A stretch of 64,000 nt of DNA from Verrucomicrobiales bacterium (GTDB lineage Bacteria; Verrucomicrobiota; Verrucomicrobiia; Limisphaerales; UBA11320): the NCBI GenBank assembly GCA_016793885.1, contig JAEUHE010000061.1:1-64000 (forward strand), written 5' to 3'. Made by a program: the position numbers and the translations under genes. Shown piece by piece: positions 21,831-64,000 of this stretch; position 1 is the first letter of the stretch, and each line of letters begins with the position of its first letter. Under the pieces are notes generated by a model. That model saw only the letters and a program-made list of their open reading frames with translations, searched no databases and was not told where the DNA came from.

Positions 21831-22895
21831 TTACGCGATGGTGATATCCTTGTCCAGGTAGACGTCTTGGATGAGGTTTAGGAGCTTGGCGCCTTCTTTC
21901 ATCGGACGTTGGAAGGCTTTTCGGCCCGAGATCAAACCCATGCCTCCGGCCCGTTTATTGATCACGGCAGTCATGACGGCTTCAGCAAAATCGTTTTCTC
22001 CTGAGGCCCCGCCTGAGTTGATGAGCCCCGCTCGACCCATGTAGCAGTTGGCGACTTGGTAGCGGCAGAGGTCGATGGGATGATCCGAGGTGAGCTGGCT
22101 GTAGATGCGCTCGTCCAGTTTGCCGTAACTCGATCCTCCGCTATTGAGTGCCTTGAAGCCTCCGTTGTTCTCGGGGAGCTTCTGTTTGATGATGTCCGCC
22201 TGGATGGTCACTCCTAGATGGTTGGCTTGTCCCGTCAGATCGGCGCTGACGTGGTAGTCTTTATCCTTTTTGAAGGCATTGTTCCGGAGGTAGCACCAGA
22301 GAACTGTAGCCAGGCCATGATCGTGGGCGGCAGCGAAGGCCTGAGCTACTTCTACGATTTGCCGACCACTGTTCTCCGATCCAAAGTAGATGGTGGCTCC
22401 GATAGCCGCGGCCCCCATGTCGGCGGCTTCCTTGATGGTTCCGAAGAGGATTTGATCGGCCTTGTTCGGGTAGGTAAGCAGCTCGTTGTGGTTGATCTTA
22501 ACCATGAACGGGATTTTGTGGGCATACTTGCGTGCCACGGTGCCGAGCACGCCATAGGTGGACGCGACGGCGTTGCATCCCCCTTCGATGGCGAGTTTGA
22601 CGATGTTTTCCGGATCAAAGTAAACCGGGTTCTTCGCAAAGCTAGCTCCGGCGGAGTGTTCGATTCCCTGGTCCACGGGCAAGATAGACAGGTAGCCGGT
22701 GCCGCTCAGGCGCCCACTGCGAAAGAGGCGTTCCAGATTTCCGAGCACCCGGTTGCTCCGATCCGAAGCCGACCAGACCCGGTCGATGAAGTCGCCGCCT
22801 GGCAGGTGGAGCATGGAGCTGGGAACGGTCTTGGATTGGTGTTTGAGGAGGCCGTCGGCCTTGTCGCCGAGCAATTGAAGGAGTTCAGAATTCAT
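21831..22895 (-). CDS. fbaB: Class I fructose-bisphosphate aldolase, DhnA/FbaB type
   Basis: 354 aa, almost exactly the length of E. coli FbaB. Catalyses reversible cleavage of fructose-1,6-bisphosphate to dihydroxyacetone phosphate and glyceraldehyde-3-phosphate through a lysine Schiff base, with no metal. Key segments: [14 protein letters not shown] (res ~70-83), KINHNE (133-138), ADIIK237QKL with K237 the probable Schiff-base lysine, and 'SGG...GENDF' phosphate-binding region near 297-306. The archaeal-type class I enzyme serves glycolysis or gluconeogenesis. The start ATG (22893-22895) is preceded not by a ribosome site but by a GAACTT hexamer repeat. Confidence 0.93.
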
Positions 22896-23299: not shown

Positions 23300-24223
23300 A
23301 TGCTGCTTCCCCTCTTGCTACTCGAATGCCGTTCCCTCGCGGACACCGGATCGATCACCGTAGCCATACTGGACTTCGAGTCCAAGGAGGATGCGATTCG
23401 CGATGCGGGGGCGAAGTTTTCAGCGGTTGTGGCGGCTCATCTGAGCGCGAGTTCGAAAGTGTGGCTGGTGGAGCGAGCCGAGCTGGCTCTTTTGCTGAAG
23501 GAACAAGCAAAGGGTCTCTCGGGCACAGTCACCCCTGAGAGCGCCGCCAGGATCGGCCATCTCACCGGTGCCAAAGTGCTGGTGAGCGGCAAGGTGGTGC
23601 GCATCGGGGCGGACTATCTGATCGTCGCGAAGGTCATGGGCAGCGAGACGGGCCGCACGTTTGGCGAAACGGTTCGGGGTAAGGCCGTCGACGCCTACAC
23701 AACGGTGGCTGAGGAACTCAGTCGAAAGCTGCTGGCGGCAATTGAGGTTAGTGCCGACCAGTTGGTTGCGCCGCCTCCGACCGCGACCGACCATCAGAAG
23801 CTCCTGCTTGAACGACTGGGAGCCAAGGCGAGGCCGACCGTTTCCATTTTGATTCCGGAACAGCATTCCGGGTCACCCGTCAACGACCCGGCCGCCCAGA
23901 CCGAAATTTCATGGTGGCTGACCCAGACCGGGTTTGGGGTGGTGAACACGACCCGTTCAGGTGAGGCGGATGTTCAGATTTCCGGCGAGGCTTTCAGCGC
24001 GTTTTCGACGCGCAACGGCAGCTTGGTGTCCTGCCGAGCTCGGGTTGAGCTCAAAGCTGTCGATCGCCGAGGAACAGTCCTTTACGCGGATCGAGAGACC
24101 TCGGTTTTCGTCGACAACACCGAGCAAACAGCTGCTAAAGGTGCACTCCAGCGTGCAGCCGCTTCACTATCGCTCCGTTTACTTCCCGCGCTGGTTAACT
24201 CGGGTAGCTCCACGAACCGCTGA
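23300..24223 (+). CDS. Exported CsgG/TolB-N-like protein, first gene of a three-gene operon
   Basis: 307 aa from ATG 23300, which opens a hydrophobic leader (MLLPLLLLEC); upstream ATGs in the same frame only add Arg/Cys-rich sequence. Res ~19-150 fit the CsgG/FlgO/TolB-N type: ITVAILDFESKED, then WLVERAELALLLKEQ, then 'GAKVLVSGKVVRIGADYLIVAKVM'. These domains sit in periplasmic or outer-membrane-associated assembly and secretion factors. Res ~180-300 form a second alpha/beta domain (VSILIPEQ...VQISGEAF). C10 follows LLLLE, which is not a good lipobox, so lipidation is doubtful. The next gene starts 9 bp downstream and has a related N-terminus with the same VERAEL-LLKE motif. The role is unknown; an exported sensor or assembly platform is a guess. 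Confidence 0.72.
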   Translation: MLLPLLLLECRSLADTGSITVAILDFESKEDAIRDAGAKFSAVVAAHLSASSKVWLVERAELALLLKEQAKGLSGTVTPESAARIGHLTGAKVLVSGKVVRIGADYLIVAKVMGSETGRTFGETVRGKAVDAYTTVAEELSRKLLAAIEVSADQLVAPPPTATDHQKLLLERLGAKARPTVSILIPEQHSGSPVNDPAAQTEISWWLTQTGFGVVNTTRSGEADVQISGEAFSAFSTRNGSLVSCRARVELKAVDRRGTVLYADRETSVFVDNTEQTAAKGALQRAAASLSLRLLPALVNSGSSTNR

Positions 24224-24232
24224 TTCCCTACC

Positions 24233-27200
24233 ATGATTTCCTCTATGCTACCCGATCTGAGACTCGTTGATCCGCCCCCTCAGCGAGCGGGTGGTGCCGT
24301 CGCGCTCGCTCGCGTGCTCCGGCATGCCTACATTCTGATCGCGGCCTTCTGCTGGCTGTCGATGGGTTCCGCCCAAGGTGCCACTCCACCCACGGCAAGG
24401 CTGAAGGCGGCCTTCGCTCCCTTCTCGGTCGATGGCACCTCGTATCGTGCCGCGACTACTGCTCGCGAATTCTCGGACGCGTTGTTCGCGTCCGTCATGG
24501 AGTTTGATGGAGTGGAGTGGGTGGAGCGGGCTGAGCTTCACCTGTTGAAGGAGGAACTGGAACTGTCGAAATCAGGTTTTGGGAATTTGGAATCTCAGGC
24601 CCGAGCGGGACGGTGGAGTGAATGCGACCTGCTCATTTCGGGACGCTTTGAGGACGGTTCAGGCCCTGGTTCTACCCTGGTCATGGAGATTGTGAATCCG
24701 CGTCGGGGCGAGCTGTTGATCTCGACCAACCTGGTCTTGAACGCCCGACTGAGCAAGGATTCCAAGGCGGTGCTCGAGGAGTTGGATCGAGTTGCCGGGG
24801 TGACGCGGCAGTTGCTGAGCGCTGCCGGCGACCTAGCGGCACACCAACGTCAGTTGGTTTCCATCGCCCTGGTGACGACCTTCAACCAGCTGCAACCGCA
24901 AAAGGGGATGCACCCGCCCAATGTTCCTAAACTGATCTCCGACACATTTCAGCGTCAACTGCAGTCCAAAACGGGGCTCCGCTCCTGGCGGCATTCTCGG
25001 CATCAGCAAGGCCGTGAGGAAGCCCGGTTGATCCGAAGCGGCCTGCTGGGTTCTGAGTCTCGCGATTGGAGCCGCCTCAATTCGAGCTATGTGGTGGTGA
25101 ATGCCACCAATGTCGCCGTCTTCGCCCGATCCGGTCCGGATGCGGGATGGACCGATCGCTACGACTTACGCTTTGCCATTCTGGATGTTCTGGGTCGAGT
25201 TCACCTGGAGGTCCGCACTAACCTGCGCAACGCCGAGTTGGTCGAAGCCGCGGAGGAACTCACCAAACGAGCTTTGAGCCTGGCGACTAACCGAGCACCC
25301 CAACAAGTTCCGGAGGGATCCATCCAACGGTTCGCGTCCCTGGTCAGCGAGTGGTCGGGCGAGCGTTCCTACAATCTCGCTGACTATGACGGTCGGTTGA
25401 GTTGGCTGGAGCATGTGGGTGGGTTGGAGATTGCCGCACAATTGGGGTGGCAGGTCCCGTCGATTCGGGCGCAAGTTCTCCGTGCTACCTACGATGCCGT
25501 GACGGGGCTCCCACGTCAGCCCAGTTTTCGGGAGCATCTTGAAATGCATGACCGGTGGCAGATGCTGTTGGATGAGTTTACCTCCGCCGATCACCCTCAA
25601 CGAGCGGAAACGCTGCAGGTGTTGGGAGCCCGTAAACTCCACCAGCTGGCTTTGTCCAGTTTGAAGCTGGTCGAAACCGTTCGCATCGGCTCGCAGACAT
25701 TCGGTGATTTTCCGCCCAGCATTGTGCAGGCTCTAGGCGTCCGACTGGAACGCCAATTCCTTCAGCGCGCCCGACTGACGCTGCGAGCTCCGGACTACAC
25801 GCCGGCCGATGGACAGTGGATGATAGCTGATCGACTTCTGACGGCTTCCGAGGTGGTTGCCTTAAGTCAGGAGATCGCGGGGGTGAACGCGACGGCTACC
25901 CGGCGCGACGCGATTCCACGCCAGCCGTCCCCGTCGTCGGCCGCCCCCGTCGCGGCCGATCCTTATTCCTTTACCAATCTTCCCCGATTTCCTCGAGCCG
26001 TCGACAGCGATAAGACCGTGGTAACGGATCTTCGAATGGCTTCCTCGCTTCCTCCTCGCCTGGACTTGCCGATCGAATCCTTTACTCCCGAGGGACTGTC
26101 GTCGGTCAAAGGCCTGATCGACATGGTCTGCGGAGGCGATGAAGTCTTCCTGCTGCTCGGCCAGGAGGAAGAGGTGCAGGATCTCGAGCGCGAGAGGAAC
26201 CTGGGGGTTAAGCTGGGCCTTGCGAAAGTCCCTGTGACTCGGATCTGGGCGTTCAACCCCGCGCTTGGGCGAACCAGGAAAGTGGCTTCTTTGCCGTTAA
26301 CCAATCGCTTCCAACGATTGGCCTGGCATGAGAATCGACTTTGGGCGGCGGGTGATTTTATCGTTTCAGTGGATCCCCGTTCTTTGGAAGCGGGTCGGCG
26401 ATATAACTTGCCAGATGGTTTTCGAAGCCCGCTGCTCGGGTTTACCTGGCATGAGGGGGGGCTGGTGGTTGCGTCCGACCGAGAGATTGCGCAACTCGAT
26501 CTGAAGTCGGGACAGTGGAACGCGGTTGCGGTGCCGCCCGTGATGGGAGGCGGGAGATTAGTGTCTTCGGCTCGCGGCGTTTTTTTGGCGTCGAACCGTC
26601 ACTTTGGATTCATCGAGCGAAGCGCGCTTCAGGCCATCACGCCTCAGCTTTTCAGGGAAGGAGTCCCTCCTGAGGGCTTTGCCTCGCTCATCGAGCCCAG
26701 CTGCTTCGGGGGAATCTGGGTTGCAGGGCAATACGGGTTGATGCATTACGACGCCTCGAATCGGTTTGGGGGTTTTCAAGCGCCCTCACCTCAGTATCCC
26801 GCGTTCGACAACTTCTCCGCGTTTGCCAGCTATTGCAAGCGGCAGCGTGAGAGCCATGCCAGCGAGACGAATTACCATCCCTTTCGTCCACTCAGCCGGA
26901 TCAACGGACCAATCCAGGACGTGCGGGGGGACGGAGAGTTTTTATGGGTTGTCACGGCTGGAGGTGAGCCGATGGGCTATGGTCGAAGGTTCATGCTGAT
27001 GCACCAGCCCACGCGGCAGTGGATCGGTTATGTGCCGGTTCCCAGTATCGGCAGTCCGATCGCCTTGGGGAATGGCTATTTGTGGGTACTCAACTCGCCC
27101 TTCAACTCAGGCGATGGCTTTCAACTCGGGCGGGTGGATTGTCGACGCGCTTACGCGACTCCTCGATCCTCCTGGGTGGACTCTCAGCCGGACCGAGCGG

Positions 27201-28162
27201 AGCTTGATTTGCAGGTGTCGAGTTGGTCACTCAAGGAACGTATCCTGGATGCCTTCGTAGCAGGCAGCTACTCCAATTGTGTGCGACTCATCGGATTGGT
27301 TTCTCCGCTCGACGAAGATCCGCAGCTGGGCTTCATCCTGGCCCTGGCTGCGCAGTCCCCCGAAGTCATGCGTCCGGATCTGAGCGTGGGAGCGCTTCGA
27401 TCTTTGATGGTTCGGGAGCCGGAAACTTACCCCTGGCACCTGTTGGCCAAAGCCAATTTGGGTGGCGCGCAACTCATGCTTTCCCAGTCCTCCGCGAAGG
27501 CTGCGGGGGGCACGCCGACGAGTGGGGCCAGCCTTCCTTTTGAGTTGGCCGAAGCCACGCTCCGAGACCCAGCTGTGGTGAAAACTCTGTTCAGCCAATT
27601 TGATTTGGACGCCAACGGCCGTCTGGATCTCGACGAGCTGAGGGCGATGGACATCGAGCGGGAAGCGTACGCTCCTCATATTGCGGTGCGTTTGTTTCTC
27701 GTGGATGTCAACCGCAATCAGGAGCTGGACCTCACGGAGCAGCACCTTCTGTATGCAGCGTTGCGTGCTCAAGCGGAGCCCTTGTTGCTTCCCTATGATC
27801 TCGACCGCGATGGCGGCGTCAGCCGGGTGGAGGCGAAGGCCATGCACGAAAAGTTCCCCAATACGGTCGGTGGTTTTTGGCCGCTGCATCGGTTTGACTC
27901 CATCGATCTGGATCAGGACGGCAAGCTCTCTATTCGCGAGATTTCCTGGACCCTCACCACGCTGTTTGTCCAGCGGGCCACCCCGTCCGACGGTTTCGGT
28001 AATCGCATCTACCCGGAACTCCCGCAGCTTCCCTCCTACGATTCTAATTCCAACCGGCTTTGGGATCCGCCAGAGGTCGCCGCTCGCCTGAAACAGATCT
28101 ATCAGCTCAACCGTACGGCGACAAACGCCCCCTCCGGGTTGCAGGCTCTAACCAAACCCTAA
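24233..28162 (+). CDS. Large exported protein: CsgG-like N-terminus, propeller-like middle, C-terminal EF-hands
   Basis: 1309 aa; signal peptide at about res 28-50 (HAYILIAAFCWLSMGSAQGA). Res ~55-350 repeat the two-part architecture of the preceding gene (WVERAELHLLKEEL near res 98-111, then a second alpha/beta part beginning LVSIALVTTF). Res ~610-1000 contain repeated Trp/Gly strands (LAWHENRLWAAGDFIVSVD, FTWHEGGLVVASDREIAQLD, WIGYVPVPSIGSPIALGNGYLWVL) suggesting a beta-propeller. From ~1120 there are four or five EF-hand loops: DLDANGRLDLDE, DVNRNQELDLTE, DLDRDGGVSRVE, DLDQDGKLSIRE and a degenerate DSNSNRLWDPPE. Calcium binding outside the cytoplasm is likely. The gene starts 9 bp after the previous one and ends 6 bp before the next. 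No known family covers the whole protein. Confidence 0.78.
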   Translation: MISSMLPDLRLVDPPPQRAGGAVALARVLRHAYILIAAFCWLSMGSAQGATPPTARLKAAFAPFSVDGTSYRAATTAREFSDALFASVMEFDGVEWVERAELHLLKEELELSKSGFGNLESQARAGRWSECDLLISGRFEDGSGPGSTLVMEIVNPRRGELLISTNLVLNARLSKDSKAVLEELDRVAGVTRQLLSAAGDLAAHQRQLVSIALVTTFNQLQPQKGMHPPNVPKLISDTFQRQLQSKTGLRSWRHSRHQQGREEARLIRSGLLGSESRDWSRLNSSYVVVNATNVAVFARSGPDAGWTDRYDLRFAILDVLGRVHLEVRTNLRNAELVEAAEELTKRALSLATNRAPQQVPEGSIQRFASLVSEWSGERSYNLADYDGRLSWLEHVGGLEIAAQLGWQVPSIRAQVLRATYDAVTGLPRQPSFREHLEMHDRWQMLLDEFTSADHPQRAETLQVLGARKLHQLALSSLKLVETVRIGSQTFGDFPPSIVQALGVRLERQFLQRARLTLRAPDYTPADGQWMIADRLLTASEVVALSQEIAGVNATATRRDAIPRQPSPSSAAPVAADPYSFTNLPRFPRAVDSDKTVVTDLRMASSLPPRLDLPIESFTPEGLSSVKGLIDMVCGGDEVFLLLGQEEEVQDLERERNLGVKLGLAKVPVTRIWAFNPALGRTRKVASLPLTNRFQRLAWHENRLWAAGDFIVSVDPRSLEAGRRYNLPDGFRSPLLGFTWHEGGLVVASDREIAQLDLKSGQWNAVAVPPVMGGGRLVSSARGVFLASNRHFGFIERSALQAITPQLFREGVPPEGFASLIEPSCFGGIWVAGQYGLMHYDASNRFGGFQAPSPQYPAFDNFSAFASYCKRQRESHASETNYHPFRPLSRINGPIQDVRGDGEFLWVVTAGGEPMGYGRRFMLMHQPTRQWIGYVPVPSIGSPIALGNGYLWVLNSPFNSGDGFQLGRVDCRRAYATPRSSWVDSQPDRAELDLQVSSWSLKERILDAFVAGSYSNCVRLIGLVSPLDEDPQLGFILALAAQSPEVMRPDLSVGALRSLMVREPETYPWHLLAKANLGGAQLMLSQSSAKAAGGTPTSGASLPFELAEATLRDPAVVKTLFSQFDLDANGRLDLDELRAMDIEREAYAPHIAVRLFLVDVNRNQELDLTEQHLLYAALRAQAEPLLLPYDLDRDGGVSRVEAKAMHEKFPNTVGGFWPLHRFDSIDLDQDGKLSIREISWTLTTLFVQRATPSDGFGNRIYPELPQLPSYDSNSNRLWDPPEVAARLKQIYQLNRTATNAPSGLQALTKP

Positions 28163-28168
28163 CTCGTT

Positions 28169-29959
28169 GTGAATCCTCTCAATCATCCATTCGTGCTGGC
28201 CGTGGTCGCCTGCGTGACCCTTCTTCAGGCTGCATCGGGACAAATCAATTATCGTGGGATCTCGGAGGAAGTTCGCACCGAACGGCGCAAAGGACTGGCG
28301 GCCCTTCAGCGTGGGGCGGCCGAGGGGAATGTCGCCGCCATGACCGCGCTCGGACTCGAGTATGTTGGGCGGCTGGAACACTTGGATGATCTGGCTGAAG
28401 CCGAGCGCTGGCTGCGCCGGGCCAGCGAGAAGGGATATGCCCCGGCACAAACTGAACTGGGCATCCTGTTGGTGGACTACCGCAGGACCCAGGCCGCGCT
28501 CAAGGAAGCGGATGAGTGGCTGGGGAAGGCCACCGCGCAGGGTTTCCAGCCCGCTCTTCATTTTCGCGTGTATGTGTACGTGAATTCGCTGGGCTCCCTG
28601 CGCGATCCGGAACGGGCAATTCAATTATTGATTCCGTCTGCCGAGGCAGGAGATCGGGAGTCCCAATTCTTGCTGGGATCAGCCTATTCCAAACGCGCTT
28701 TGACATCGCAGGGTGTCGTCGTGGGTAATCAGGAGATCGCGATCGAGTGGTATGAGAAGGCGGCTCAACAAGGTTTGGTCGAGGCTCAGTTTGAAATGGG
28801 CAACTCCTTTTACTATGGGTCCAAAAATGATTTCCATCGCGCTGCGGCATGGTTTCGGGTTCCCGCAGAACAGGGTAATGCCGAAGCGATGCGGAAGATC
28901 GCTTTTTGCATGCTGGCCGGGAACAAAGCTTCGGAAGATGAAAAGCGGCAGGCGATTCGGTGGCTCGAGCGCGCGATCGATGCCGGGGACACCGAAGCTG
29001 CGAGCCTGCTTAAGAACATCCGTGACACCGGCTATATCTCCGCCCATTTCCGGCCCGACCCGGCCTCCCTGGCCGATGCGCTAGGTCGCGCGGAGAAGGG
29101 CGATGTCGATTCGATGCTGTTTCTGGCCGTCTCGTTTTGGAATGGTAGCAACACTCCGGTGGACCGCTCCAAGGGGGCTAGCTGGTTTCGAGCGGCTGCT
29201 GAGAAAGGCAATGCCTGGGCGATGTATCGTTACGGGATGGCGGTGGAGGGGGGGCAGGGCGCGGCGGCTTCGTTTCCGGAGGCGATCGGCTGGTACGAGC
29301 GTGCGGCGGCGGCAGGCCATCGCCGCGCGAATCGCGAATTGCTCCGGCTCTATGCGCTGGGGCTGGCCTCGTTCCCGGCGGGAAAGTCATTCCCAAGCTG
29401 GCTCAGGGAAAAGCGCGAACATCTTATGCAGGACAGCCTCGGCTTTCTCGGCGAACTTTATTGGAAGGGCGAGTTGGTTCCCAAGAATGTGGGACGCGCG
29501 ATCTATTGCTACACGCAGGCGGCGGATCAGAAGGACCCGCTGGCTTTGAACCGACTGGGGGAGATGCATCTCCAAGGGATCGGCGGGACCACCAATCTCA
29601 ACGAGGCCCTGTATTGGTTTAGAGCCGCCGCGAAGCAACATTGGGCGCCGGCTCAGCTGAACCTGGCGGATCTTTACGTCCAGGGTTCGGTGGACTCTAC
29701 GAACCTGCCCAAAGCCTGGATTCTGGCATCGCTGGCGGCGCACAGCCGAATCCCTCGCGCCTCCAGCCTGGCGTTCGAATTGGAGTCGAAGTTGGATGCC
29801 CTGACCCTCGTGGCGGCTCGGACGCATCTGAACTCCGCTCTGGCATCGATTGTCACCGCACCAGGAGAGGCGGAGGATTGGCGTAACTTCCGGGTAGGCG
29901 GGTTCGGGGATCCGACGTACAAGTGGGGACGCCAGCTGGACGGCGCGCTTCTTCCCTGA
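28169..29959 (+). CDS. Exported Sel1-repeat protein, third gene of the operon
   Basis: 596 aa, GTG start at 28169, 6 bp after the previous stop; a signal peptide follows (FVLAVVACVTLLQAASGQ). Most of the protein is Sel1-like repeats of about 36 residues, for example AAEGNVAAMTALGLEYV, SEKGYAPAQTELGILL, AQQGLVEAQFEMGNSFY, AEKGNAWAMYRYGMAVEGG, AAAGHRRANRELLRLY and AAKQHWAPAQLNLADLYVQG. These alpha-solenoids mediate protein-protein contacts. With two CsgG-like partners in front, it may be the scaffold of a periplasmic complex. No enzymatic motif was seen. It is followed after 50 bp by a convergent signalling operon. Confidence 0.85.
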   Translation: MNPLNHPFVLAVVACVTLLQAASGQINYRGISEEVRTERRKGLAALQRGAAEGNVAAMTALGLEYVGRLEHLDDLAEAERWLRRASEKGYAPAQTELGILLVDYRRTQAALKEADEWLGKATAQGFQPALHFRVYVYVNSLGSLRDPERAIQLLIPSAEAGDRESQFLLGSAYSKRALTSQGVVVGNQEIAIEWYEKAAQQGLVEAQFEMGNSFYYGSKNDFHRAAAWFRVPAEQGNAEAMRKIAFCMLAGNKASEDEKRQAIRWLERAIDAGDTEAASLLKNIRDTGYISAHFRPDPASLADALGRAEKGDVDSMLFLAVSFWNGSNTPVDRSKGASWFRAAAEKGNAWAMYRYGMAVEGGQGAAASFPEAIGWYERAAAAGHRRANRELLRLYALGLASFPAGKSFPSWLREKREHLMQDSLGFLGELYWKGELVPKNVGRAIYCYTQAADQKDPLALNRLGEMHLQGIGGTTNLNEALYWFRAAAKQHWAPAQLNLADLYVQGSVDSTNLPKAWILASLAAHSRIPRASSLAFELESKLDALTLVAARTHLNSALASIVTAPGEAEDWRNFRVGGFGDPTYKWGRQLDGALLP

Positions 29960-30009: not shown

Positions 30010-31950
30010 TTAAGGTTTGCTGGAAGCCTCCTTGAGCGTGTCGAGTAGCTTTTCCACACCGTACGGTTTGGTCAGCAAGGCGTACCCCCCGGATTCCGCC
30101 AACTCGGCCAGGCGATCCAGCCAGTTGCGATCATCGGCGATTCCGCTGGAAACCACCACCTGGATGGACGGGTTCAGTTTTCGGATGGCCCGAGTCAGCG
30201 CGACCCCATCCATTAGAGGCATTTCGAGATCGGTAACCAGCAATTGAATCTCCTTTTGCCGTTGAGTGAATTGGACGAGGGCATCCACGCCGTCACGCGC
30301 CAGGAGGGTCCGATAGCCGTTGCGAGTGAGATATTGATCGGTTGCCTTGAGGATTTCGGGCTCATCATCGACGACCAAAACGAGTTCGCCGTTGCCCTGC
30401 GTCAGCGGTTTGGAAGGCTGCAGGTCCAACGCCGGCGCCGTGACTCCCGGCGTCGCGGGCAGATGGACGGAAAAGGTGCTGCCTTCATCGACCTGACTTT
30501 GGACTTCCAAAAATCCACCGTGTTTTTTCACGATACCCAAAGCCGTCGACAATCCCAGCCCGGTGCCGGAGCCGGGCTCCTTCGTGGTGAAGAATGGATC
30601 GAAGATGCGTTCCAGCACTCCTGCCGGGATGCCCGTTCCGGTATCCCGGACGCGTAGCCGCACATAGTCTCCCACGCCAGGTTCCCCTGAGTGTTGGGTG
30701 GCGCTCGGAGTGAGCCGGAGATTCTCAGCCAATAAAGTGATCTTGCCCCCGCTGGGCATCGCATCCCGCGCGTTCACGCACAGGTTCAGCAGCACCTGAT
30801 GGAGCTGAGTGGCGTCCCCCTGCACAGTCCACAGTTCGGGAGATACCCTGGCCTCGATCATGATGCCTTTCGGAAAGGTTTCGCGGATCATCTGGAGCAG
30901 GTCGCGGATCAAATGCTTGAGATCGGTGGTGCAGCGCTTCGCTTCCATACCGCGTCCGAACAGCAGGAGCTGCTTGACCAGTTCGGCCCCTCGTTGGGCA
31001 CTTGTTTCAATGGAGGTGAGGATCTCCTCTGAATCGTGGGCTGGCAGATTCCAGCGCAGCATGGGGGCGGACATCATGATGGGAGCCAGGATGTTGTTCA
31101 GATCGTGGGCGATTCCGCTCGCCAAGGCCCCGATGCTTTCGAGTCTTTGAGCGCGGAGAAGTCTGGCCTCGTTCTGCTTGCGCTCTGTCACGTCCTGCTG
31201 GACGGCGACGAAATGGGTGATACGACCCTGGCCGTCCGGCAGCGGAACCGTGGACCACTGCATGTGGAACTCCTCGCCGTTTTTTCGGTAGTGGATCGTT
31301 TCGCCGCAGAACCCCTCGCCTCGTGCCAGGCTGTCCAGGAGCCGGCTGATGAGGTTCTGGTCGGTTTTGGGGCCGTGGAGGATCCGCATGGTCTTGCCCA
31401 GGACCTCATCGGCAGTATAGCCGGTGATGTTCGTGAAGCCCGGGTTCACAAAGACAATTCGGGGTCCTGGGCTATCGAGATCTGCCGTCGTGATGATGAT
31501 GGACTCCGTGACCTGCTGGATGGCCGTTTCGAGCAGCCGCAAACGTTCGTCCGCCTGCTTCCGGGCCGCTCGCTGCTCAGCTTCATTCAGGGCGCGCCTA
31601 ACGGCCGGCACCAGTTTCGAGAGTCGGTGCTTAAGAATGTAATCCGTGGCGCCGGTTTTAAGGCTCTCCACCGCCGCCTCCTCCCCCAGGGTCCCGGACA
31701 CAAAGATGAACGGAACATCCGTATTGGAACCACGCACTAGGTCGAGCGCGGACATGCCGTCATAACCCGCGAGTGCATAGTCCGAGAGAATCAGATCGTA
31801 GTCGCCCTGACCCAGGGCGGATTGGAAATCGTCCGCCCCCGCAACGAGCACCCATTCACAGACGATGCCGGCGCCCTGCAGCGCGGAGTGGATCAGCTCG
31901 GCGTCCCGGGCGTTGTCTTCGAGATGGAGGATTCGCAGCATTTCTTTCAT
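30010..31950 (-). CDS. Hybrid histidine kinase: REC-PAS-HisKA-HATPase-REC
   Basis: 646 aa from ATG 31950; an upstream in-frame start at 32049 would run into the neighbour gene. N-terminal receiver with phospho-acceptor D57 (LILSDY). Then a PAS domain (IVFVNPGFTNITGYTADEVLGK; PAC end VQQDVTERKQ), kinase H-box GIAHDLNN with His near 281, N-box LCVNARDAMPSGG, G boxes DTGTGIPAG and GSGTGLGLS, and a C-terminal receiver (VTDLEMPLMDG, Asp near 576). It has no membrane segment, so it is cytoplasmic. Third gene of a likely operon with the Rcp1-like regulator 25 bp upstream and the PAS kinase before it. It probably relays the upstream kinase signal; no DNA-binding output is present. Confidence 0.9.
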   Translation of the reverse strand: MKEMLRILHLEDNARDAELIHSALQGAGIVCEWVLVAGADDFQSALGQGDYDLILSDYALAGYDGMSALDLVRGSNTDVPFIFVSGTLGEEAAVESLKTGATDYILKHRLSKLVPAVRRALNEAEQRAARKQADERLRLLETAIQQVTESIIITTADLDSPGPRIVFVNPGFTNITGYTADEVLGKTMRILHGPKTDQNLISRLLDSLARGEGFCGETIHYRKNGEEFHMQWSTVPLPDGQGRITHFVAVQQDVTERKQNEARLLRAQRLESIGALASGIAHDLNNILAPIMMSAPMLRWNLPAHDSEEILTSIETSAQRGAELVKQLLLFGRGMEAKRCTTDLKHLIRDLLQMIRETFPKGIMIEARVSPELWTVQGDATQLHQVLLNLCVNARDAMPSGGKITLLAENLRLTPSATQHSGEPGVGDYVRLRVRDTGTGIPAGVLERIFDPFFTTKEPGSGTGLGLSTALGIVKKHGGFLEVQSQVDEGSTFSVHLPATPGVTAPALDLQPSKPLTQGNGELVLVVDDEPEILKATDQYLTRNGYRTLLARDGVDALVQFTQRQKEIQLLVTDLEMPLMDGVALTRAIRKLNPSIQVVVSSGIADDRNWLDRLAELAESGGYALLTKPYGVEKLLDTLKEASSKP

Positions 31951-31975
31951 GGGGTCTTCTGGACTGCGTGCTTTC

Positions 31976-32446
31976 TCACAGGCCGCCGACTGGAAGGGGT
32001 TTGGCGAGCGCGCCGGGGGGAGGCTCGTTGAGCAGCACCCAATACACACTCAGGCTCTTCACCGCCTCGACGAATTGCTGGAAGCGAACCGGCTTGACGA
32101 GATACGAGTTCACTCCCAGCTCGTAGCTCCGCAAGAGGTCCTGTTCCTCGCGTGAGGAGGTCATCATCACGATGGGGACACGTTTCAGAGTAGGATCGGA
32201 CTTGATCTGACGCAAAACCTCGAGTCCATCCACCTTGGGCATTTTTAAATCCAGCAGCACGACCACCGGCAGGCCTTCAATGCGGTTCGCGTAGGCCCCG
32301 CGACGGAAGAGGTAATCGAGCGCTTCAGCCCCGTCTCTCGCCACGATGACCTCATTAGCCAGATGGTTTTGTTCCAGGGCATTCAAGACGAGTTCCACGT
32401 CGTTCGCGTTGTCTTCGGCGAGCAATATCCTTCCGATGGCAGTCAT
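31976..32446 (-). CDS. Rcp1-type single-domain response regulator
   Basis: 156 aa CheY-like receiver. Acidic pair E11-D12, phospho-acceptor D66 in VVLLDLKMPKVDG, MMTSS and the conserved K in LVKPV. The longer insertion between beta3 and its helix (NRIEGLP) and the C-terminal extension are typical of Rcp1 partners of phytochrome-like and PAS kinases. It starts 3 bp after the kinase gene, so the two are almost certainly a cognate pair. Having no output domain, it must act by protein contact or by passing phosphate to the hybrid kinase downstream. Confidence 0.92.
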   Translation of the reverse strand: MTAIGRILLAEDNANDVELVLNALEQNHLANEVIVARDGAEALDYLFRRGAYANRIEGLPVVVLLDLKMPKVDGLEVLRQIKSDPTLKRVPIVMMTSSREEQDLLRSYELGVNSYLVKPVRFQQFVEAVKSLSVYWVLLNEPPPGALAKPLPVGGL

Positions 32447-32449
32447 AGT

Positions 32450-34291
32450 TTAAGGCTTCTTTGCGGGTGGTAGCGAAAAATAGAATGTTGCCCCGGCGTC
32501 CATAACGCTTTCGGCCCAGACCCTTCCGCCATGCCGGGTTACGATGCGGCGAACATTGGCCAGGCCGACGCCGGTGCCCTCGAACTCTTCTGGCCGGTGG
32601 AGCCGCTGGAAAACGCCGAACAGCTTGTCGACGTACTTCATCTCAAACCCCGCGCCGTTGTCACGGACCGAAATCACCACCTCTTCGGATGTTTCGTGCA
32701 CCAGGCTAATTTCAACCTCCGCGCGACTTCGGCGACGGGTGTATTTCACCGCGTTCGACAGTAGGTTCACGATTACTTGGAGGAGCATTGCCTGATCGCC
32801 ATGGACAGCAGGGAGAGCTCCGATCTTCCAATCGATCTGGCGTCCTTGGGTTTCGGGATGCAGGGTGTTGAGGGCCTCGGGGATCAGCACGTTCAGATCA
32901 ACCGTCCCCAGTTTCATTTCCTGGCGGCCCATTCGTGAGAAGGCCAGCAGATCATCGATCAACTGTCCCATCTGCGCGGCCGACTCGGAAACAATGCTGA
33001 GGTAGCGCCGTCCTTTGTCGCTGAGCGAGCTGCCGAGGTGATCTCCCAGCATTTCCACGTAGCCATTGATGTGACGGAGCGGGGCGCGGAGATCATGGGA
33101 GACGGAGTAGGAGAAGGCCTCCAGTTCCTGGTTGGCTGCATGCAGCTTTTGGTTGGCGGTCTGAACCGCTTGCGAGCTCTGGAAGATTTCAGCCTCCATT
33201 AGCTCCATCCGAGCGACGAGCTTTGCTCGACTTCGATCATCGCTCTCGCGCGCGGGCGTCGTGCTCCCTCGCTTGCTGAGCACGAATTCGGTCACGTCTT
33301 CGACCCGATGAATGATGAACTGGACTTCCCCCCCCGCTCCCAGCACCGGACGATTGACCGGGCTCCAGAACCGTTCTTCAAAACTGCCGTCGGGACGACG
33401 TACATCGTACTTTTGAATCGCCATGGTGTCGGTCGTCCGCGTTTGTCTCACTCGATTCAAGGACGACCGGAGGTTGGAGACACCGGTGGCGCCGGGGTCG
33501 TCGGGGTTGTCAGGAAACACGTCGAACAGGTGACGGCCGCAGATGGCCTCACGTCGGGTCAGGGTCGCGGCCAGGTAAGCGTCGCTCACCGCGATGATCT
33601 GGAGATCCGTCGTCAGAACCAGATAGAGGCCTGGAAGCGATTCGAACAGGCTTTGGAGCTGGGCACGGCTCTTTTGGAGCTCCTCGTTGGCTGCGCGGAG
33701 CGCTTCTTCTGCCTGCTTGGTGTCGGTTACGTCGCGTGCGGTGGCATACATGAGCCCATCCGGTTGAGGCACGGACCTCCAGGAGAGAACCCTCCAGCTC
33801 CCGTCCTTGTGTCGGTAGCGGTTCTCGAAACGGAGCACTTTTTCCCCGGTCGTGCGCTGCCTTTCCACTTCGCGGAGTGTGGCTTGGTGGTCCTCCGGGT
33901 GCACGAAGGAGAGAAACGGTTCAGCCATGAATTCCTTCGGCGTCCAACCGAGAATATCTGTCACTGCCGGGCTGACCCTTTTAAAGTAGCCGTCCGTGCT
34001 GGCGATGCAGAGGAAGTCCAGCGAGAGCTGGAAGAACCGATCGAGCTCTGCACGGGCTTGGCGTTGAGCCTTCACAAACCAATAGCTCGCGGTGAGGAGG
34101 GCTAGGACAATGAAGCCCGCGATGACGTAGTGCTGCCGGAGTTGGGCCGCGGGCGAGGCAGCCTCCGCCGAGGTTGCTTCCGCTGGGCCAGAGGCGTGCA
34201 AGTTTAAGACAAGAACGATGTCGCTGGTCGCGACAATGGCGGCCAGTAGCAGCGGGCAGCGATGGAGGTGGCTTGGCTTCCGTGCCGACAT
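32450..34291 (-). CDS. Membrane sensor histidine kinase with two PAS domains
   Basis: 613 aa. Two hydrophobic segments (about 12-31 and 54-72) bracket a very short periplasmic loop. PAS 1 follows ([29 protein letters not shown] end [14 protein letters not shown]), then PAS 2 ([20 protein letters not shown]), a coiled linker, and a HisKA with [16 protein letters not shown] (His near 402). HATPase: N-box [13 protein letters not shown] boxes [15 protein letters not shown] and [12 protein letters not shown]. This DHp type ([10 protein letters not shown]) is that of phytochrome-related kinases paired with Rcp1 regulators. First gene of the operon. The ligand or redox signal is unknown; no haem or flavin site could be identified by eye. 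Confidence 0.9.
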
Positions 34292-48943: not shown

Positions 48944-51900
48944 CTACTGATGGGGGAGCACATGTATCTCTCCCCCTCCAATGGTCAGGACGTCCGTCCG
49001 ACTGTCTCCTGTCAGATCCAGAGCGAAGATGCGTTTGGACTCCGCTTGGTTGCTCGCGGAGGTGTTCATGAAGTGGAATCCAGCTTCGTCAAACCCACCG
49101 GATTGCTGAGCCAAGTAGACTTGGAGGGTCATCGACCCATCCTCCAGGAGCAGATCAAGTAAGCCGTCTTGGTTGATGTCTGCCCATTGCATGTCGACCA
49201 CGGTGGTGCGTGAGGGATCAGTGATCTGAAGCAGCGTTGTGCCGGCCCCGAGTAAGCCGTTGGCCGTGGGGTATACCTTGACCTTCGATTCCGTTTCACT
49301 GTATTCGACGGTCAGGAGGTCGAGATCCCCGTCGTGATCATAATCGGCGAGCAACGTTTTCATCGTCGATGAGCTGTTCGGCAGTGTCTGCGCTGCGACG
49401 ATGCTCGTCCCATTCCAACTTAGAATGTTGATCTCTTCGGCGTAGCCTTGGGCGACGATCTCCTCCTTGCCGTCACCATTGAGGTCGGTGGCGAGCATCG
49501 TTGAAGGGAACCCGATGAGTGCTGAGGCGGTCTGAGGCTGCCAGGTGCCCCCCACCCCTTGGAGGAAAGGCAGAAATCGGAAGTTGTCGCCTCCGATGAA
49601 CAACAGATCCTTGCGTCCATCCCCATTGAGATCCGCCACCACCAGAGACCGTGGAGCTTCTGGAAGCGCGAGAAAGGTGGGTGCAGCGAAAGTGCCATCG
49701 CTCTGTCCCATCATGAAGTGAACCCGATTCGTCCCGCTGACCCTCGTGCCGAATGCGAACGAGGAGGTGTAGGCGATGGCATCGGCGATGCCGTCGCCGT
49801 TGATGTCCTTGAGTTCCAGCCCAGCCAGATTGTTCGTGAGCGTGATGGTCTGGACAATCCGGAGGCTGGCCAGACCGTTGAGTTCCACCACTTCCACCGA
49901 GTTGCTCACGTGATTCAGGGCGGCCCATCGGGGTGGGTGGCCTGCGGTGGTGAGCAGGCCGGGGTGGGACCAATCTTTACCCGCCTGGAACAGCACGACT
50001 CCGGCTTTGAACGACCCGTCGCCGTTCCCCTTGAGAAAGCTGTAGCGACCGCTGATCCCAGTGAGGAGATCCAGCTTCTGATCCTCGTCAATGTCCACCA
50101 CGATCGGAGCTCCTCCGGTGATCGCCGAGATGAGCGATGGACTGGTCAACGTCTGGCCGGATGTTCCCAGGATGCGCGTCACGACCGACATGAGGTGTCC
50201 GATCACCAAATCGCCCTTCCCATCGTTGTTGAGATCTCGAATGATGGGCTTGAGCGGGTTATCGGCGAGTGCGAGTCGGACTTGTCCGGAGAAGTTGCCT
50301 TGACCCAGGCCGAAGAGCACCGACACCGAATCCACGGTGCTGCTGGTGGTCGCGATGTCCGGAAGCCCGTCACCATTCAGATCGCCGACGGCGACATGAT
50401 TAGGGAACAGGTCGACTTCGAAGAATTTCGCAGCCTCGAAATCGCCATTGGCTTTACCCAAGAGCACCACCGCCAGGTTGGCGTTCGCGCTAATGGCGAG
50501 ATCGGCTTTGCCGTCCTGATTCAGGTCCCCGGACGCCAGGTCGTTGAGGAATCCCGTTCCGGGCACGGCCAGTTCACCGAGCGAGGAAAAGGATCCGTTA
50601 GGATTGCCGAGGTATCGGCTGACGGACTTCGACCGTTCGTTGAGTACCACGAGATCCAGGCTTGCGTCCCCGTTGAGGTTCATTGGCAACACCCGTCGGG
50701 GGTTCGATCCGGTGACCAGTTCCAACCGGAACTGGAATCGGCCGTCTCCCAAGCCCTGATAGACGTAGGCCCGCTGCTCCACCAGCGAGGTGATGACCAG
50801 GTCCGGAAGCGCATCCGCATCGAGTTGACCGATCTGCATGTCGGTTATCGAGCTGAACTCCGCGATTCTGGCGCTTTCCAGGCCCGCTTGGAAGCTTTCG
50901 TCGGGGTTGCCCAGCTGGACCAGGATGTTGCCGGTTTGCGGGTGGATCGAGACCATATCTCGTCTTCCGTCCTGGTTCACGTCTTCCAAGAGCAGTGAGC
51001 TGCCGAAGTCCAGCGCCTGGATCTGAGCGGGGTAGAAGCCCGGGTCCGACTCGGGAGGCGCATCGGGCACCTCCGGATTCGTGCCGTTCTCATACTCGGC
51101 CTTGTTCGTGTAGCCGTCGTGGTCGGCGTCCTCACTAGCATCGGTCGGATCCAGTGGATTGAGGATCTGGGGACGGTCCAACTCGTAGAGGTCGTCCAGA
51201 CCATCGCCATCCGCATCGACCGGACGCTCCAGAGGAACAGCCAGCAGGCGGTAGTTTTCGAGCGTGGCTCCAGCCGGGGCGGTGGAGTCGATGAAGGTTC
51301 CGGTTCCGTCGACCCCACGCTGGAGGGCGATCGGAGTCTCGGTATGGGTGATGAGATTGGTTCGGTAGAGCGTGAAATAGAACTCCCGCGAGGAGGAGTA
51401 GGGGATTACGAGCGAGCCATTCGGCTGGAACGATGGGCCGTGGAGTTCGAAGAATCCCCCGAAGTCGCCGTAGCGCATCGATAGACCGCTTCCGTAGCTG
51501 AGAGGATCGCCCACATAGGCCTCCGCAACGCAGTCGCCGTCGCAGGGGTTGTTGATGTTGAGCGGTCCCTTGGCGGTTGCTTGGAGAATGTAGCGAAGCT
51601 CGAATGACGCACCGTCGGCGATGTCGCTGAGGTCGATCTGCCGGGTAACGTCCGGGAACTCGACCGTCATCGAGTAAATGCGCCCTTGGGAATCGCTTTC
51701 AAAAGTGGGAGTTGGAGGGCCAAAGTAGCCTTCATGCGTTTCGATGCGGAAGGTGTGCGCCGTCGTGTCGTCCTGGCCATGACCCACGATGTGTGTGCGC
51801 GCGTAGAAGATGTTCCGCCACTCTGCATTCGTGGCCGCTCCGACTCGGCGCTGCAACAGGATCATGGTCTCGGCGCTCAGTTCATTGGTGTCGGGATGCA

Positions 51901-54900
51901 GATCCTGGTCCGCCAGACGCAGATGGATTGGCTTGATGTGGTATTTGGGAAACGCAACCCCTGGCAGCTTGGTGAAGGAACGCTTCCAGCTCACATCGGC
52001 TCGGTAGTCGGCTTGCTTGTCCGGGGGGGCGGTCTGGAAGGGGGCGCTCTTGGCCCAGGCGTAGAGAGTGGCCTGATCATTGGCATAGGCCTGCGGTGGG
52101 TTGCCGGTGGGGTCGGAAGTGGCCAGCTCGGTGATAAGTGCGGCCACGGCCTTGGCCTTCGGGTCGGAGACCAGCTCGGCGTGCTGAGGGTTTTCGGTGG
52201 CGAACTTCACCGTCATCTCGACGATGGTGAGGTCTACGGCAAAGTCGCCGCCCCGGTGCACCGCAGTGGGTTTCATGGTTCCGATGGAGCGGGCTAGCAC
52301 CACGCGTCCATCGGCCAGTTGAATAGGATCTGTCGCCACGTAGTATTCTTGGCCCACCGGAACCGTATAGATTTGGGTGTCGTTAGTGCGGCTAAGTCGG
52401 AAGGGCTGGTAGAGCTTCGCCCCCGTGGTTGCATTTCTGACCCAGACCAAGGCTTCAGGGAAGGTCGGCTCTTTGATCAGGAGGGACTTCCCGGAAACCA
52501 CCAGGTCCAGGGAATCGATCAGGGTATCGAGATCGGTAACCTGATAGATCGGGTCTTCCCAGAGGCCGGATGCCTGCAACACTTCCAAGTCAGTGTATTC
52601 GATGGTGCCAAGCGAACCGGCCATCTCGAGCGTGTCGCTCCGATTCATAACCCCATCGCCATTGAAGTCCCCGCGGGGGTGAAACTTGATCTCTCGATCG
52701 GCCTGGTACTCGCCGTCCTGGTTGGCGTCGACTTTTGGGTTGGCGTCGGAGCCGTTGAGACTGTGGTTGAGAGTGAACGACTCTTCACCGTTCAACAGCC
52801 AGTCACGCCAGGTTCGGAAGTCGCCCATATCGATCTTGCCATTGCCGCGATGTCCCTGGCCAGGGGTTCCAAACTGAGTGTTGTCCACTGTGCCCGCGAT
52901 GCGATGGAAGCTGCGATCGCCTAGATCCGAAATGGCCGGCACATCGATCCGCGTGACGCCATCAGGGGTACCGTCGTCCACATCGAGCAGGCCGCGTAGG
53001 ATTTCGTTGTTCCGGCCAGGGAGGGAATCGATGGACAGAAGGCTGATGTAGGCGTCGACGGCGCCGGTTCCGGTAGTCAGGAGGAGGTTCCGAATCTCGG
53101 CAACCGTCAGATTGGGATCCGCGGCCCACAGGAATCCCGCGAGGCCGGTAACGAAGGGCGTGGCCATGGAAGTGCCGCTCTTCACCGCGTAGCCGCTGCT
53201 GGGGGCCAAGGACAAAATCGTTCCACCAGGGGCGAGCACATGCGGCCCGGGATTTGAGAAGTCCGACATCGTGCCGTCGGACTCAAAGGATCCGATCACC
53301 AGGACATTGGGTGCGTTGTAGATCAGTCCGGCCGCTCCCCAGGGGCTGTTGTTCGCCGCAGTGACGGCGCCGTAGTCGTTTCCAGCGCTGCAGACGAACA
53401 GGGTGTTGGGATTGGAGATCGCGACCACGTAGGACATCGCGCCGGATTGCAGCGCATACCTTGTCGCGTTGGCCTGCTCGGCTGGGGTCAGAGGAGTTCC
53501 GTGAGGCGACCAGGCGAAACCGATGCTGATGTTCACCAGCTTAGTATCGGGAGCCAGCGTAAGTCCGGTGATGATGTCCTGGTAGAACGAGGAGAGGGTT
53601 GGGAAGTCGAAGGAGTAGCCCCGAAGCACTCCAAACGGATTAACACCATCGATGCCCATTTGGTTTCCATACTTCGCTCCAATGATGCCAGCGACGTGAA
53701 GTCCATGGTCTTCATGTTGGCCTGGCATGGCGGGATTGAGGACGTCGATGTCCAAGTCGGTATGCGTCGGAAAACCGCCATCGACCACCAGAGTGGGTGT
53801 CTTGGGTCCTCCTGCTTTCTCGATGGCTTCGCCGAAGTTCCAAAGTTCCGGAACTCGGCACCATTCGAGTCCCCAGTTGCCGCCGTTGGGATTCCAGTAG
53901 GTATCCCAAAGCCAGGTAAGATAGTTGCCCGCTGAGTCGGATGCTCCCACGGGGGCGGTATCCAGGGTCATGTTGTCCGGGGACAGCTGGATATCGGGGA
54001 TCGCCGCGGCAACTCCGGGCTCGGAGATCAAGGCATCGGCCAGTGACTGCAAGGCTGACGGACTTTCGGTCGGAAAGCGGATCAGGAGGAAGGACTGATT
54101 CGCCTTGGGACTTTGCGGACGACAGGACACGATCGAGCCCTGATATTTGGAAAGGAGGCTGTTGATCTGGGCGACTGTTGCCTCGGGTTTCAACGTGACC
54201 ACTGCGAGTTGTTTCGCGACCCCTTTTCCTGCGAAATTGGGCACCGAGTGATCAAACTCAGAGGCAGCGGGGTAGCGGGGGAAATCCGGGAGGAGAAGGC
54301 CGGTGGGTGTGTTGGCGGCCCCTTTGACCTGGGTAAAGACAGGTGACCCGATCGTTCCGGACAGATCGGCTCCCTGGAGGCCGACGCTGTTGAGGTTGAT
54401 CTTATCGATGTTGGCTCCGGATAGACTGGCCTGGGCTAATTGCGCATCCGTCAGTAGGGCACCGGAGAGGTCCGCGCCTGTGAGGTTGGCTCCGGTGAGA
54501 TTCGCATTGGCCAAGTTGGCTCCCGCCAATTGCGCGCCGCTCAGGTCGGCTCCCCCGAGCTGAATGCCATTCAGGTTGGCACCGGGCTGCTGGAAAGTCC
54601 CGAGCACTCGGAAGAACTGCGCTTGGTCGGAGGTAGGGAACTGTCGTGCCCAGTGGACCGCCGGTTGGGTGGACGATCCGCCGAGGAAGGACGGTTCGGT
54701 ATCGTGCCAAGTGACCAGGTCCGAACTGCGCTGAGGCTGGAAAGTGTTGTGATAGAAAGGAGCCAATGCGGTTAGCGAATGGGAGTCCCACTCGAGCTGG
54801 ATCCCGGCGTCGACGATGGAAATGTTAACGGTCAGATCCGCAGCGTTCCCTGGGCAGGCTCCAGCTAGCATCGCGAGCAATGCCAGCCCCCTCGACCACC

Positions 54901-55018
54901 GGCACACGCTGGATGAGGCTACTGTGCGGTGCTGGTCCCTGGAGAAGAACGACTTCCGCTCTGGGTTGGCCTGCAATCGTGTGGGTCCCGCCGTCCGGTT
55001 CATAGATGTAAGCGTCAT
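48944..55018 (-). CDS. Giant secreted subtilase with pentapeptide repeats and FG-GAP/VCBS repeats
   Basis: 2024 aa from ATG 55018 (a GTG two codons earlier is also possible; numbering below counts from that GTG). Signal peptide ends near GNA-ADL (res 47-62). Res 66-140 hold the W...FFRV module. Res ~148-225 are pentapeptide repeats (A-N-L-x-G, A-D-L-S-G). The S8 domain (about 265-650) includes an inhibitor-I9-like start and the catalytic residues D415 (VVDGG), H440 (HGLHVAG), N549 (SAGND) and S619 (GTSMATP). Then come a dockerin-like region with DFNGDGVMNRSD, TSP3-type Asp repeats (DADGDGLDDLYE), and about 600 residues of FG-GAP/VCBS blades (DLNGDGLPDIATTSS and many relatives) forming a propeller. 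It is probably a calcium-stabilised extracellular protease. The gene is monocistronic. Confidence 0.9.
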   Translation of the reverse strand: MTLTSMNRTAGPTRLQANPERKSFFSRDQHRTVASSSVCRWSRGLALLAMLAGACPGNAADLTVNISIVDAGIQLEWDSHSLTALAPFYHNTFQPQRSSDLVTWHDTEPSFLGGSSTQPAVHWARQFPTSDQAQFFRVLGTFQQPGANLNGIQLGGADLSGAQLAGANLANANLTGANLTGADLSGALLTDAQLAQASLSGANIDKINLNSVGLQGADLSGTIGSPVFTQVKGAANTPTGLLLPDFPRYPAASEFDHSVPNFAGKGVAKQLAVVTLKPEATVAQINSLLSKYQGSIVSCRPQSPKANQSFLLIRFPTESPSALQSLADALISEPGVAAAIPDIQLSPDNMTLDTAPVGASDSAGNYLTWLWDTYWNPNGGNWGLEWCRVPELWNFGEAIEKAGGPKTPTLVVDGGFPTHTDLDIDVLNPAMPGQHEDHGLHVAGIIGAKYGNQMGIDGVNPFGVLRGYSFDFPTLSSFYQDIITGLTLAPDTKLVNISIGFAWSPHGTPLTPAEQANATRYALQSGAMSYVVAISNPNTLFVCSAGNDYGAVTAANNSPWGAAGLIYNAPNVLVIGSFESDGTMSDFSNPGPHVLAPGGTILSLAPSSGYAVKSGTSMATPFVTGLAGFLWAADPNLTVAEIRNLLLTTGTGAVDAYISLLSIDSLPGRNNEILRGLLDVDDGTPDGVTRIDVPAISDLGDRSFHRIAGTVDNTQFGTPGQGHRGNGKIDMGDFRTWRDWLLNGEESFTLNHSLNGSDANPKVDANQDGEYQADREIKFHPRGDFNGDGVMNRSDTLEMAGSLGTIEYTDLEVLQASGLWEDPIYQVTDLDTLIDSLDLVVSGKSLLIKEPTFPEALVWVRNATTGAKLYQPFRLSRTNDTQIYTVPVGQEYYVATDPIQLADGRVVLARSIGTMKPTAVHRGGDFAVDLTIVEMTVKFATENPQHAELVSDPKAKAVAALITELATSDPTGNPPQAYANDQATLYAWAKSAPFQTAPPDKQADYRADVSWKRSFTKLPGVAFPKYHIKPIHLRLADQDLHPDTNELSAETMILLQRRVGAATNAEWRNIFYARTHIVGHGQDDTTAHTFRIETHEGYFGPPTPTFESDSQGRIYSMTVEFPDVTRQIDLSDIADGASFELRYILQATAKGPLNINNPCDGDCVAEAYVGDPLSYGSGLSMRYGDFGGFFELHGPSFQPNGSLVIPYSSSREFYFTLYRTNLITHTETPIALQRGVDGTGTFIDSTAPAGATLENYRLLAVPLERPVDADGDGLDDLYELDRPQILNPLDPTDASEDADHDGYTNKAEYENGTNPEVPDAPPESDPGFYPAQIQALDFGSSLLLEDVNQDGRRDMVSIHPQTGNILVQLGNPDESFQAGLESARIAEFSSITDMQIGQLDADALPDLVITSLVEQRAYVYQGLGDGRFQFRLELVTGSNPRRVLPMNLNGDASLDLVVLNERSKSVSRYLGNPNGSFSSLGELAVPGTGFLNDLASGDLNQDGKADLAISANANLAVVLLGKANGDFEAAKFFEVDLFPNHVAVGDLNGDGLPDIATTSSTVDSVSVLFGLGQGNFSGQVRLALADNPLKPIIRDLNNDGKGDLVIGHLMSVVTRILGTSGQTLTSPSLISAITGGAPIVVDIDEDQKLDLLTGISGRYSFLKGNGDGSFKAGVVLFQAGKDWSHPGLLTTAGHPPRWAALNHVSNSVEVVELNGLASLRIVQTITLTNNLAGLELKDINGDGIADAIAYTSSFAFGTRVSGTNRVHFMMGQSDGTFAAPTFLALPEAPRSLVVADLNGDGRKDLLFIGGDNFRFLPFLQGVGGTWQPQTASALIGFPSTMLATDLNGDGKEEIVAQGYAEEINILSWNGTSIVAAQTLPNSSSTMKTLLADYDHDGDLDLLTVEYSETESKVKVYPTANGLLGAGTTLLQITDPSRTTVVDMQWADINQDGLLDLLLEDGSMTLQVYLAQQSGGFDEAGFHFMNTSASNQAESKRIFALDLTGDSRTDVLTIGGGEIHVLPHQ

Positions 55019-55279
55019 AAACACTTACTGATACCGACCCCAGGGCGGAATCTTTCAGAGAATTTTTTGGCGGCTATGGGATCGCCTTGCGATCGGCACC
55101 AAAACGGTTCGAGATCCAGGTGACGAATGTGAGGTGAGGTAGCGCTTTCTTTCTATTGCACACGAGTTGCTAGGCCAACCGCTGGAATCCCACCGGGATT
55201 CCGCCTCAGAGCCCTGGGTTGGCGCGACGCAGGAGCGCCTACCCGCTTATCGCAACCCCCTAAGCCAGCAATCAATGAC
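55019..55279. terminator. Gap with hairpin downstream of the giant EEP-domain gene
   Basis: GGAATCCC (55184-55191) and GGGATTCC (55195-55202) form a perfect 8-bp stem with a 3-nt loop, 78 nt past the stop at 55280 on the minus strand. A second small hairpin GATCGC-ctt-GCGATC lies at 55080-55094. The rest carries the subtilase promoter, unidentified. Confidence 0.5.
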
Positions 55280-63880: not shown

Positions 63881-64000
63881 AATTTCGCACGCGGTGTTCG
63901 AACCTCCACGGTTCGTTTTGAGGCCTTTGGACGTGCCCTGGCTCCGATCCATCTAACTGCAGTCGGATAAGAATGAGTGTAATCCAGCACGAAGGAAATC

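Follow-up and report, generated by a model that had tools for sequence, protein, structure and literature searches.

Three adjoining genes for exported proteins at positions 23300-29959 (+ strand) of the window, the stretch of 64,000 nucleotides analysed here, form a true system and not a chance row, since a second complete copy of the operon is present in the same genome and homologues of gene 1 were found in 45 of the 320 genomes of the order. The triplet is a reduced, duplicated, local form of a wider, sigma-linked envelope gene set. We predict that the products form a soluble complex of TolB-like adaptors in the periplasm and that the operon was originally controlled by an ECF sigma factor, a reading to which we give about an even chance.

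The row is laid out as the first-pass annotation had it, with intergenic gaps of 9 and 6 bp, and each of the three products carries the hydrophobic N-terminal export segment that had been claimed. The window is part of contig C61 of a draft genome of 8.7 Mb (completeness 95.7%). Gene 1 (23300..24223, + strand) encodes 307 residues from an uncertain start codon. With a start at ATG 23300 the signal has no basic N-region, and there is a further in-frame start at ATG 23171. A sigma-70 promoter scan upstream of gene 1 found no site, searches of plasmids and of PDB sequences with gene 1 gave no match, and neither did an anti-phage defence search with the three genes. The neighbours of the operon are a divergent DeoC/LacD-type aldolase gene (21831-22895, - strand) and, immediately past its end, a convergent gene for a PAS hybrid histidine kinase with its own neighbours (30010-34291, - strand). 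Also on the - strand are two very long open reading frames, one at 48944-55024 (2026 aa) and the other at 55280-63952 (2890 aa).

Structurally, the AlphaFold model of gene 1 (pLDDT 82) consists of two tandem domains of the TolB-N/CsgG fold. Domain 1 (residues 17-151, 23348..23752, + strand) has the fold of the TolB N-domain, and its model (residues 18-150) aligns with TolB (2hqs_B) at Z 15.2 and 2.4 A over 121 residues and with FlgT (3w1e) at Z 13.3 and 21% identity. Domain 2 (residues 161-305, 23780..24214, + strand) has a CsgG/PelC/LptE-like fold, residues 177-303 aligning with CsgG (6lqh) at Z 11.9 and with PelC (5t0z) at Z 11.4. At the level of profiles, Pfam CsgG reaches 28.3 bits on gene 1 (cut-off 20.8), covering only positions 9-100 of the 210 in the profile. 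TolB_N gives 18.1 bits on the window gene, below its cut-off of 22.4, and 25.7 bits on the gene 1 copy of the second operon (with its neighbours); apart from these two copies, TolB_N has no match in this genome.

With Z scores of 11-12 against CsgG and PelC, domain 2 could belong to an outer-membrane ring of the CsgG/PelC kind, in which the Sel1 protein would take the part of AlgK or PelB and the operon would export a polymer or a protein. The Sel1 protein matches the AlgK and MotX models weakly, and in relatives a paralogous sigma factor with the same promoter precedes type II secretion-like genes, both of which speak for such an apparatus. However, a pattern search found no lipobox in the window gene 1, and of 68 gene 1 proteins 65 are without one, whereas CsgG and PelC are known to carry it; the CsgG profile is matched over its first 100 of 210 positions only; and the 59 loci that we read have no recurrent family of porin, polymerase or curli subunit genes. 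We therefore regard export as an unlikely function, and the CsgG-type secretion role raised in the first-pass annotation is unlikely because the lipobox is missing from 65 of 68 proteins and the pore-forming hairpins are absent. Since these proteins have signal peptides and almost all are without a lipobox, we infer that they act in the periplasm.

Gene 2 (24233..28162, + strand) encodes an exported protein of 1309 aa with two CsgG-superfamily-type domains, a helical region, a beta-propeller and an EF-hand tail. The model is weak overall (pLDDT 58), and the fold of the N-terminal domains, which precede the helical part and the propeller, rests on homology to gene 1 together with a modest model. 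Domain 1 (residues 58-207, 24404..24853, + strand) is homologous to domain 1 of gene 1 (hhalign, 97.5%, E 4.9e-12), and the order of secondary structure elements is the same in the two models. Domain 2 (residues 209-352, 24857..25288, + strand) has the topology of gene 1 domain 2 according to DSSP of the model; the hhalign alignment of the two second halves is not significant, and their likeness is one of model topology only. The VERAEL..LLKE motif is present in both genes. Thus, the two-part N-terminal region that the genes were said to share is borne out as homology for the first domain and as topology for the second, and the difference in fold that would have spoken against it was not seen.

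The second complete operon, on contig C79, has the identical gene order, and its products are 50% (gene 1), 29% (gene 2, over its length) and 33% (gene 3) identical to those of the window. In the domain tree, each copy of gene 1 has the other as its partner (100/96), and the same is true of gene 2 (100/99), therefore the operon was duplicated whole or entered the genome twice, and was not assembled by chance. Domains of the gene 1 type and of the gene 2 type fall into two distinct clades (98/90), which extend beyond the order. Because of this wider range, the duplication that gave rise to gene 1 and gene 2 did not take place within this operon; it is ancient. The proposed origin by duplication agrees with the homologous first domains, as an ancient and not a recent event. 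The tree rules out that gene 2 arose from gene 1 by a recent duplication at this locus.

The middle of gene 2, earlier described as propeller-like, is indeed matched by beta-propeller structures with Z about 20 (residues 605-973, 26045..27151, + strand; model confidence is moderate there). The order of N-domains followed by a propeller is that of TolB, and together with the TolB-N fold and the restriction of TolB_N matches to the two gene 1 copies it could indicate a divergent Tol-Pal component in which these genes replace TolB. We find this quite improbable: Tol-Pal is expected to be near universal whereas gene 1 is patchy (45 of 320 genomes), the clusters that we read contain no Pal, TolA, TolQ or TolR, and the structure matches of the propeller are headed by DFPase-type proteins, not by TolB.

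Several EF-hand Pfam models score above their cut-offs on the C-terminal tail of gene 2. Using a 12-residue loop pattern with acidic or Asn ligands at positions 1, 3 and 5 and Glu at position 12, we find five loops, at the upper end of the four to five first noticed, while shuffled sequences give a mean of 0.04 and a maximum of 2. All lie on the + strand: loop 1, DLDANGRLDLDE (27602..27637, also found by Pfam), loop 2, DVNRNQELDLTE (27704..27739), loop 3, DLDRDGGVSRVE (27797..27832), loop 4, DLDQDGKLSIRE (27905..27940), and loop 5, DSNSNRLWDPPE (28040..28075). The gene 2 copy on C79 retains all five despite its overall identity of 29%. Gene 3 (28169..29959, + strand) encodes an exported protein of 596 aa that is a Sel1 solenoid, as first proposed: Pfam Sel1 matches in eight stretches, above cut-off, with 172.6 bits and E 6.4e-52. 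Its matches to the AlgK and MotX models are weak and far under the curated cut-offs.

The gene set is best understood from its relatives. We surveyed the 320 genomes of the order and read 59 loci; a single-sequence search of genome contigs with gene 2 was empty, and an alignment search with gene 1 was productive. None of four genomes of the same genus has a detectable gene 1. Named gene 1 records come from Verrucomicrobia subdivision 3, and remoter ones from Planctomycetota and a few other groups. Among the neighbours in the 59 loci are an ECF sigma factor (33 loci), an anti-sigma-like protein (19) and an exported protein of 280 aa (35), which stands immediately before gene 1 in 28 of its loci and has neither a Pfam family nor a PDB sequence match. 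In the co-directional runs of the 42 loci from the order, many of them interrupted by contig ends, sigma is present in 20, the 280-aa gene in 29, gene 2-type genes in 27, EF-hands in 11 and Sel1 in 8. The usual cluster thus comprises an ECF sigma factor, a one-helix anti-sigma-like protein, the 280-aa exported protein, gene 1, one or more gene 2-type genes and sometimes Sel1; L097/L060 contains the complete set in the order sigma, anti-sigma, 280-aa gene, gene 1, gene 2 and Sel1. At three loci (L112, L116 and L118), gene 1 is repeated in tandem four to six times behind one sigma-type promoter, with up to six repeats in L112.

Co-occurrence is therefore conserved in other Verrucomicrobiota, and the homologues are not mostly apart, as 11 of the 12 strong matches to the N-terminal part of gene 2 in the order lie inside a gene 1 cluster. 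The triplet stands as a conserved unit, but the core of the system is sigma, anti-sigma, the 280-aa protein, gene 1 and gene 2-type genes, and the EF-hands and Sel1, although present in the window, are found in only 11 and 8 of the 42 order loci. These genomes encode Sel1 proteins fairly often, so the association of Sel1 with the cluster, while significant (P about 3e-5 for 8 of 42 clusters at an assumed 3% per cluster), is modest. That the genes are chance neighbours without a common function could be argued from the commonness of each domain and from the variation of Sel1 and EF-hands among loci. The second full copy, the conserved clusters, the shared promoter described below and the frequency of Sel1 just given make this extremely improbable.

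Gene 2 is modular. In one locus (L018) it stops before the propeller, and in another (L124) two adjoining genes, possibly split by a frameshift, encode the N-terminal part (436 aa) and the propeller/EF part (781 aa) and are followed by Sel1. Elsewhere, gene 2-type proteins have TPR, Sel1 or ankyrin repeats at their C-terminus. From these split, truncated and differently ended relatives it follows that the EF-hands are just one of the tails that can be exchanged at this position. Calcium sensing by the EF-hands of gene 2 is thus a plausible, though optional, feature of the system. The periplasmic, calcium-responsive system that had been suggested keeps its conserved unit, its propeller and its shared fold, but the calcium part is optional. 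Nearly every genome of family f7 encodes a stand-alone propeller/EF protein; these exported proteins of 600-800 aa, and likewise that at L020 4735-6615 in genome G010, are related to the C-terminal half of gene 2. In G010 the gene adjoins those for a flotillin-like protein (identified by eye) and valyl-tRNA synthetase.

In the relatives, the sigma factor of the cluster is clearly recognised by Pfam (Sigma70_r2, E 2e-21; r4_2, E 1e-11). Beside it lies the anti-sigma-like family F3, whose members are about 200 aa long and combine a single membrane helix with a conserved outer portion; no Pfam anti-sigma model matches it, and a zf-HC2 anti-sigma takes its position in the Planctomycete loci. Upstream of the sigma genes we find the motif TCAAAGGAWTT-N12-YYGTC, about 27 nt long, with a nearly fixed gap of 15 nt from AGGA to YGTC. 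In 7 loci where the 280-aa gene is the first of its own unit, the same motif stands before it, and in 2 loci the motif precedes gene 1. A whole-genome search finds the motif 38 times in 19 genomes and a reversed-pattern control 3 times; of the 38 matches, 19 are in gene 1 loci, 3 are before unlinked gene 2-type genes and 4 are at further sigma genes, two of which are followed by type II secretion-like genes. The genes that share the motif appear to form a small dedicated regulon, with the motif presumably read by the sigma factor. That unlinked gene 2-type genes share it makes the promoter motif our best evidence for a common function.

One of the unlinked genes (L168 423-4835) starts 127 bp past the motif; its gene 2-type product is 1470 aa long and has a tail of ankyrin repeats. 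At two further loci (L171 263-5521 and L169 614-5900), a paralogous ECF sigma factor with the same motif and a shortened anti-sigma-like gene lies upstream of type II secretion-like E and F genes and pilin-like genes.

The genome of the window appears to lack the motif, the anti-sigma and the 280-aa gene. The motif has no match in it, and scored before its two operons reaches at best -4.8 and -3.3, compared with 19 to 36 at real sites. No sigma gene is near the window operon, no 280-aa homologue is found in the draft genome (95.7% complete), and the best hit of the anti-sigma profile there has E 0.001 and is at an unrelated place. This bears on whether the gene 1 and gene 2 proteins sense the state of the envelope and act on the anti-sigma, making the operon a closed signalling loop. 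The regulon seems to consist mostly of the cluster's own genes, the variable C-terminal modules would suit varied ligands, and 8 of 39 gene 2-type proteins have 'Reg_prop' propeller matches. However, two copies of the structural genes persist here without an anti-sigma or a 280-aa protein, therefore the structural genes must act without the loop, and we assign sensing of this kind a low probability.

We suggest instead that the proteins form the periplasmic complex predicted above, and the complex proposed in the first-pass annotation survives in this form. Gene 1 would be a two-domain TolB-N/FlgT-like adaptor and gene 2 its large TolB-like partner, with two such domains before a propeller; the EF-hands at the C-terminus of gene 2 would bind calcium and so steady or switch the complex, and gene 3 would be a Sel1 scaffold that keeps the partners together, the whole perhaps serving to maintain or sense the envelope. 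In most relatives, an envelope signal would release the ECF sigma factor from the membrane anti-sigma, and the freed sigma would read TCAAAGGAWTT-N12-YYGTC at its own operon, thereby activating itself, at the operon of the 280-aa gene and gene 1, and at the unlinked gene 2-type genes. In the lineage of the window, the anti-sigma, the 280-aa gene and the promoter would then have been lost and the structural operon duplicated.

In the literature covered by our search there is no description of this gene set, no paper joining CsgG, an ECF sigma factor and Verrucomicrobia or CsgG, planctomycetes and anti-sigma, and none on a CsgG/EF-hand/Sel1 operon, and the two that link CsgG to both phyla deal, judging by their titles, with different topics; the first impression that no named system has this gene order agrees with this. 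It can tentatively be speculated, at somewhat less than even odds, that this is a new envelope-response system of Verrucomicrobiota and Planctomycetota, in which an ECF sigma factor that regulates itself and uses a very specific promoter would control periplasmic TolB-like proteins with interchangeable calcium-binding, ankyrin, TPR or Sel1 tails, and some lineages would keep the structural genes after losing the switch. Little is known of the envelope biology of these phyla, and targets have been assigned to few of their sigma regulons. Here a concrete regulon is supplied, with a sigma factor, a candidate anti-sigma, a promoter-like motif and targets that include unlinked genes, and an orphan TolB/FlgT-fold family is linked to envelope signalling, so that its function becomes testable.

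Compared with known systems, TolB is similar in that gene 1 has the TolB-N fold (Z 15.2), gene 2 has N-domains predicted to be of this type ahead of a beta-propeller, and both proteins are exported and apparently soluble. However, gene 2 has two N-type domains, a long helical region, a propeller of another group and an EF-hand tail, and no Tol-Pal genes adjoin the window operon. FlgT of the Vibrio flagellar H ring, a multi-domain soluble periplasmic protein, shares the fold of gene 1 domain 1 (Z 13.3, 21% identity), but the clusters examined are without flagellar genes. CsgG of curli and PelC of Pel export share the superfamily fold, and Pfam CsgG is above cut-off on gene 1, whereas gene 1 has no lipobox, leaves half of the CsgG profile unmatched and has no recurrent curli or Pel genes beside it in the loci that we read. 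Gene 3, although far under the curated cut-offs of the AlgK, MotX and ExoR families, is like them an exported Sel1 solenoid. Finally, the clusters of the relatives resemble regulons of ECF sigma factors and membrane anti-sigmas in their co-transcribed one-helix anti-sigma-like protein, their self-promoter and their envelope targets; the window copy is without the regulator, and the targets here are a TolB-like set.
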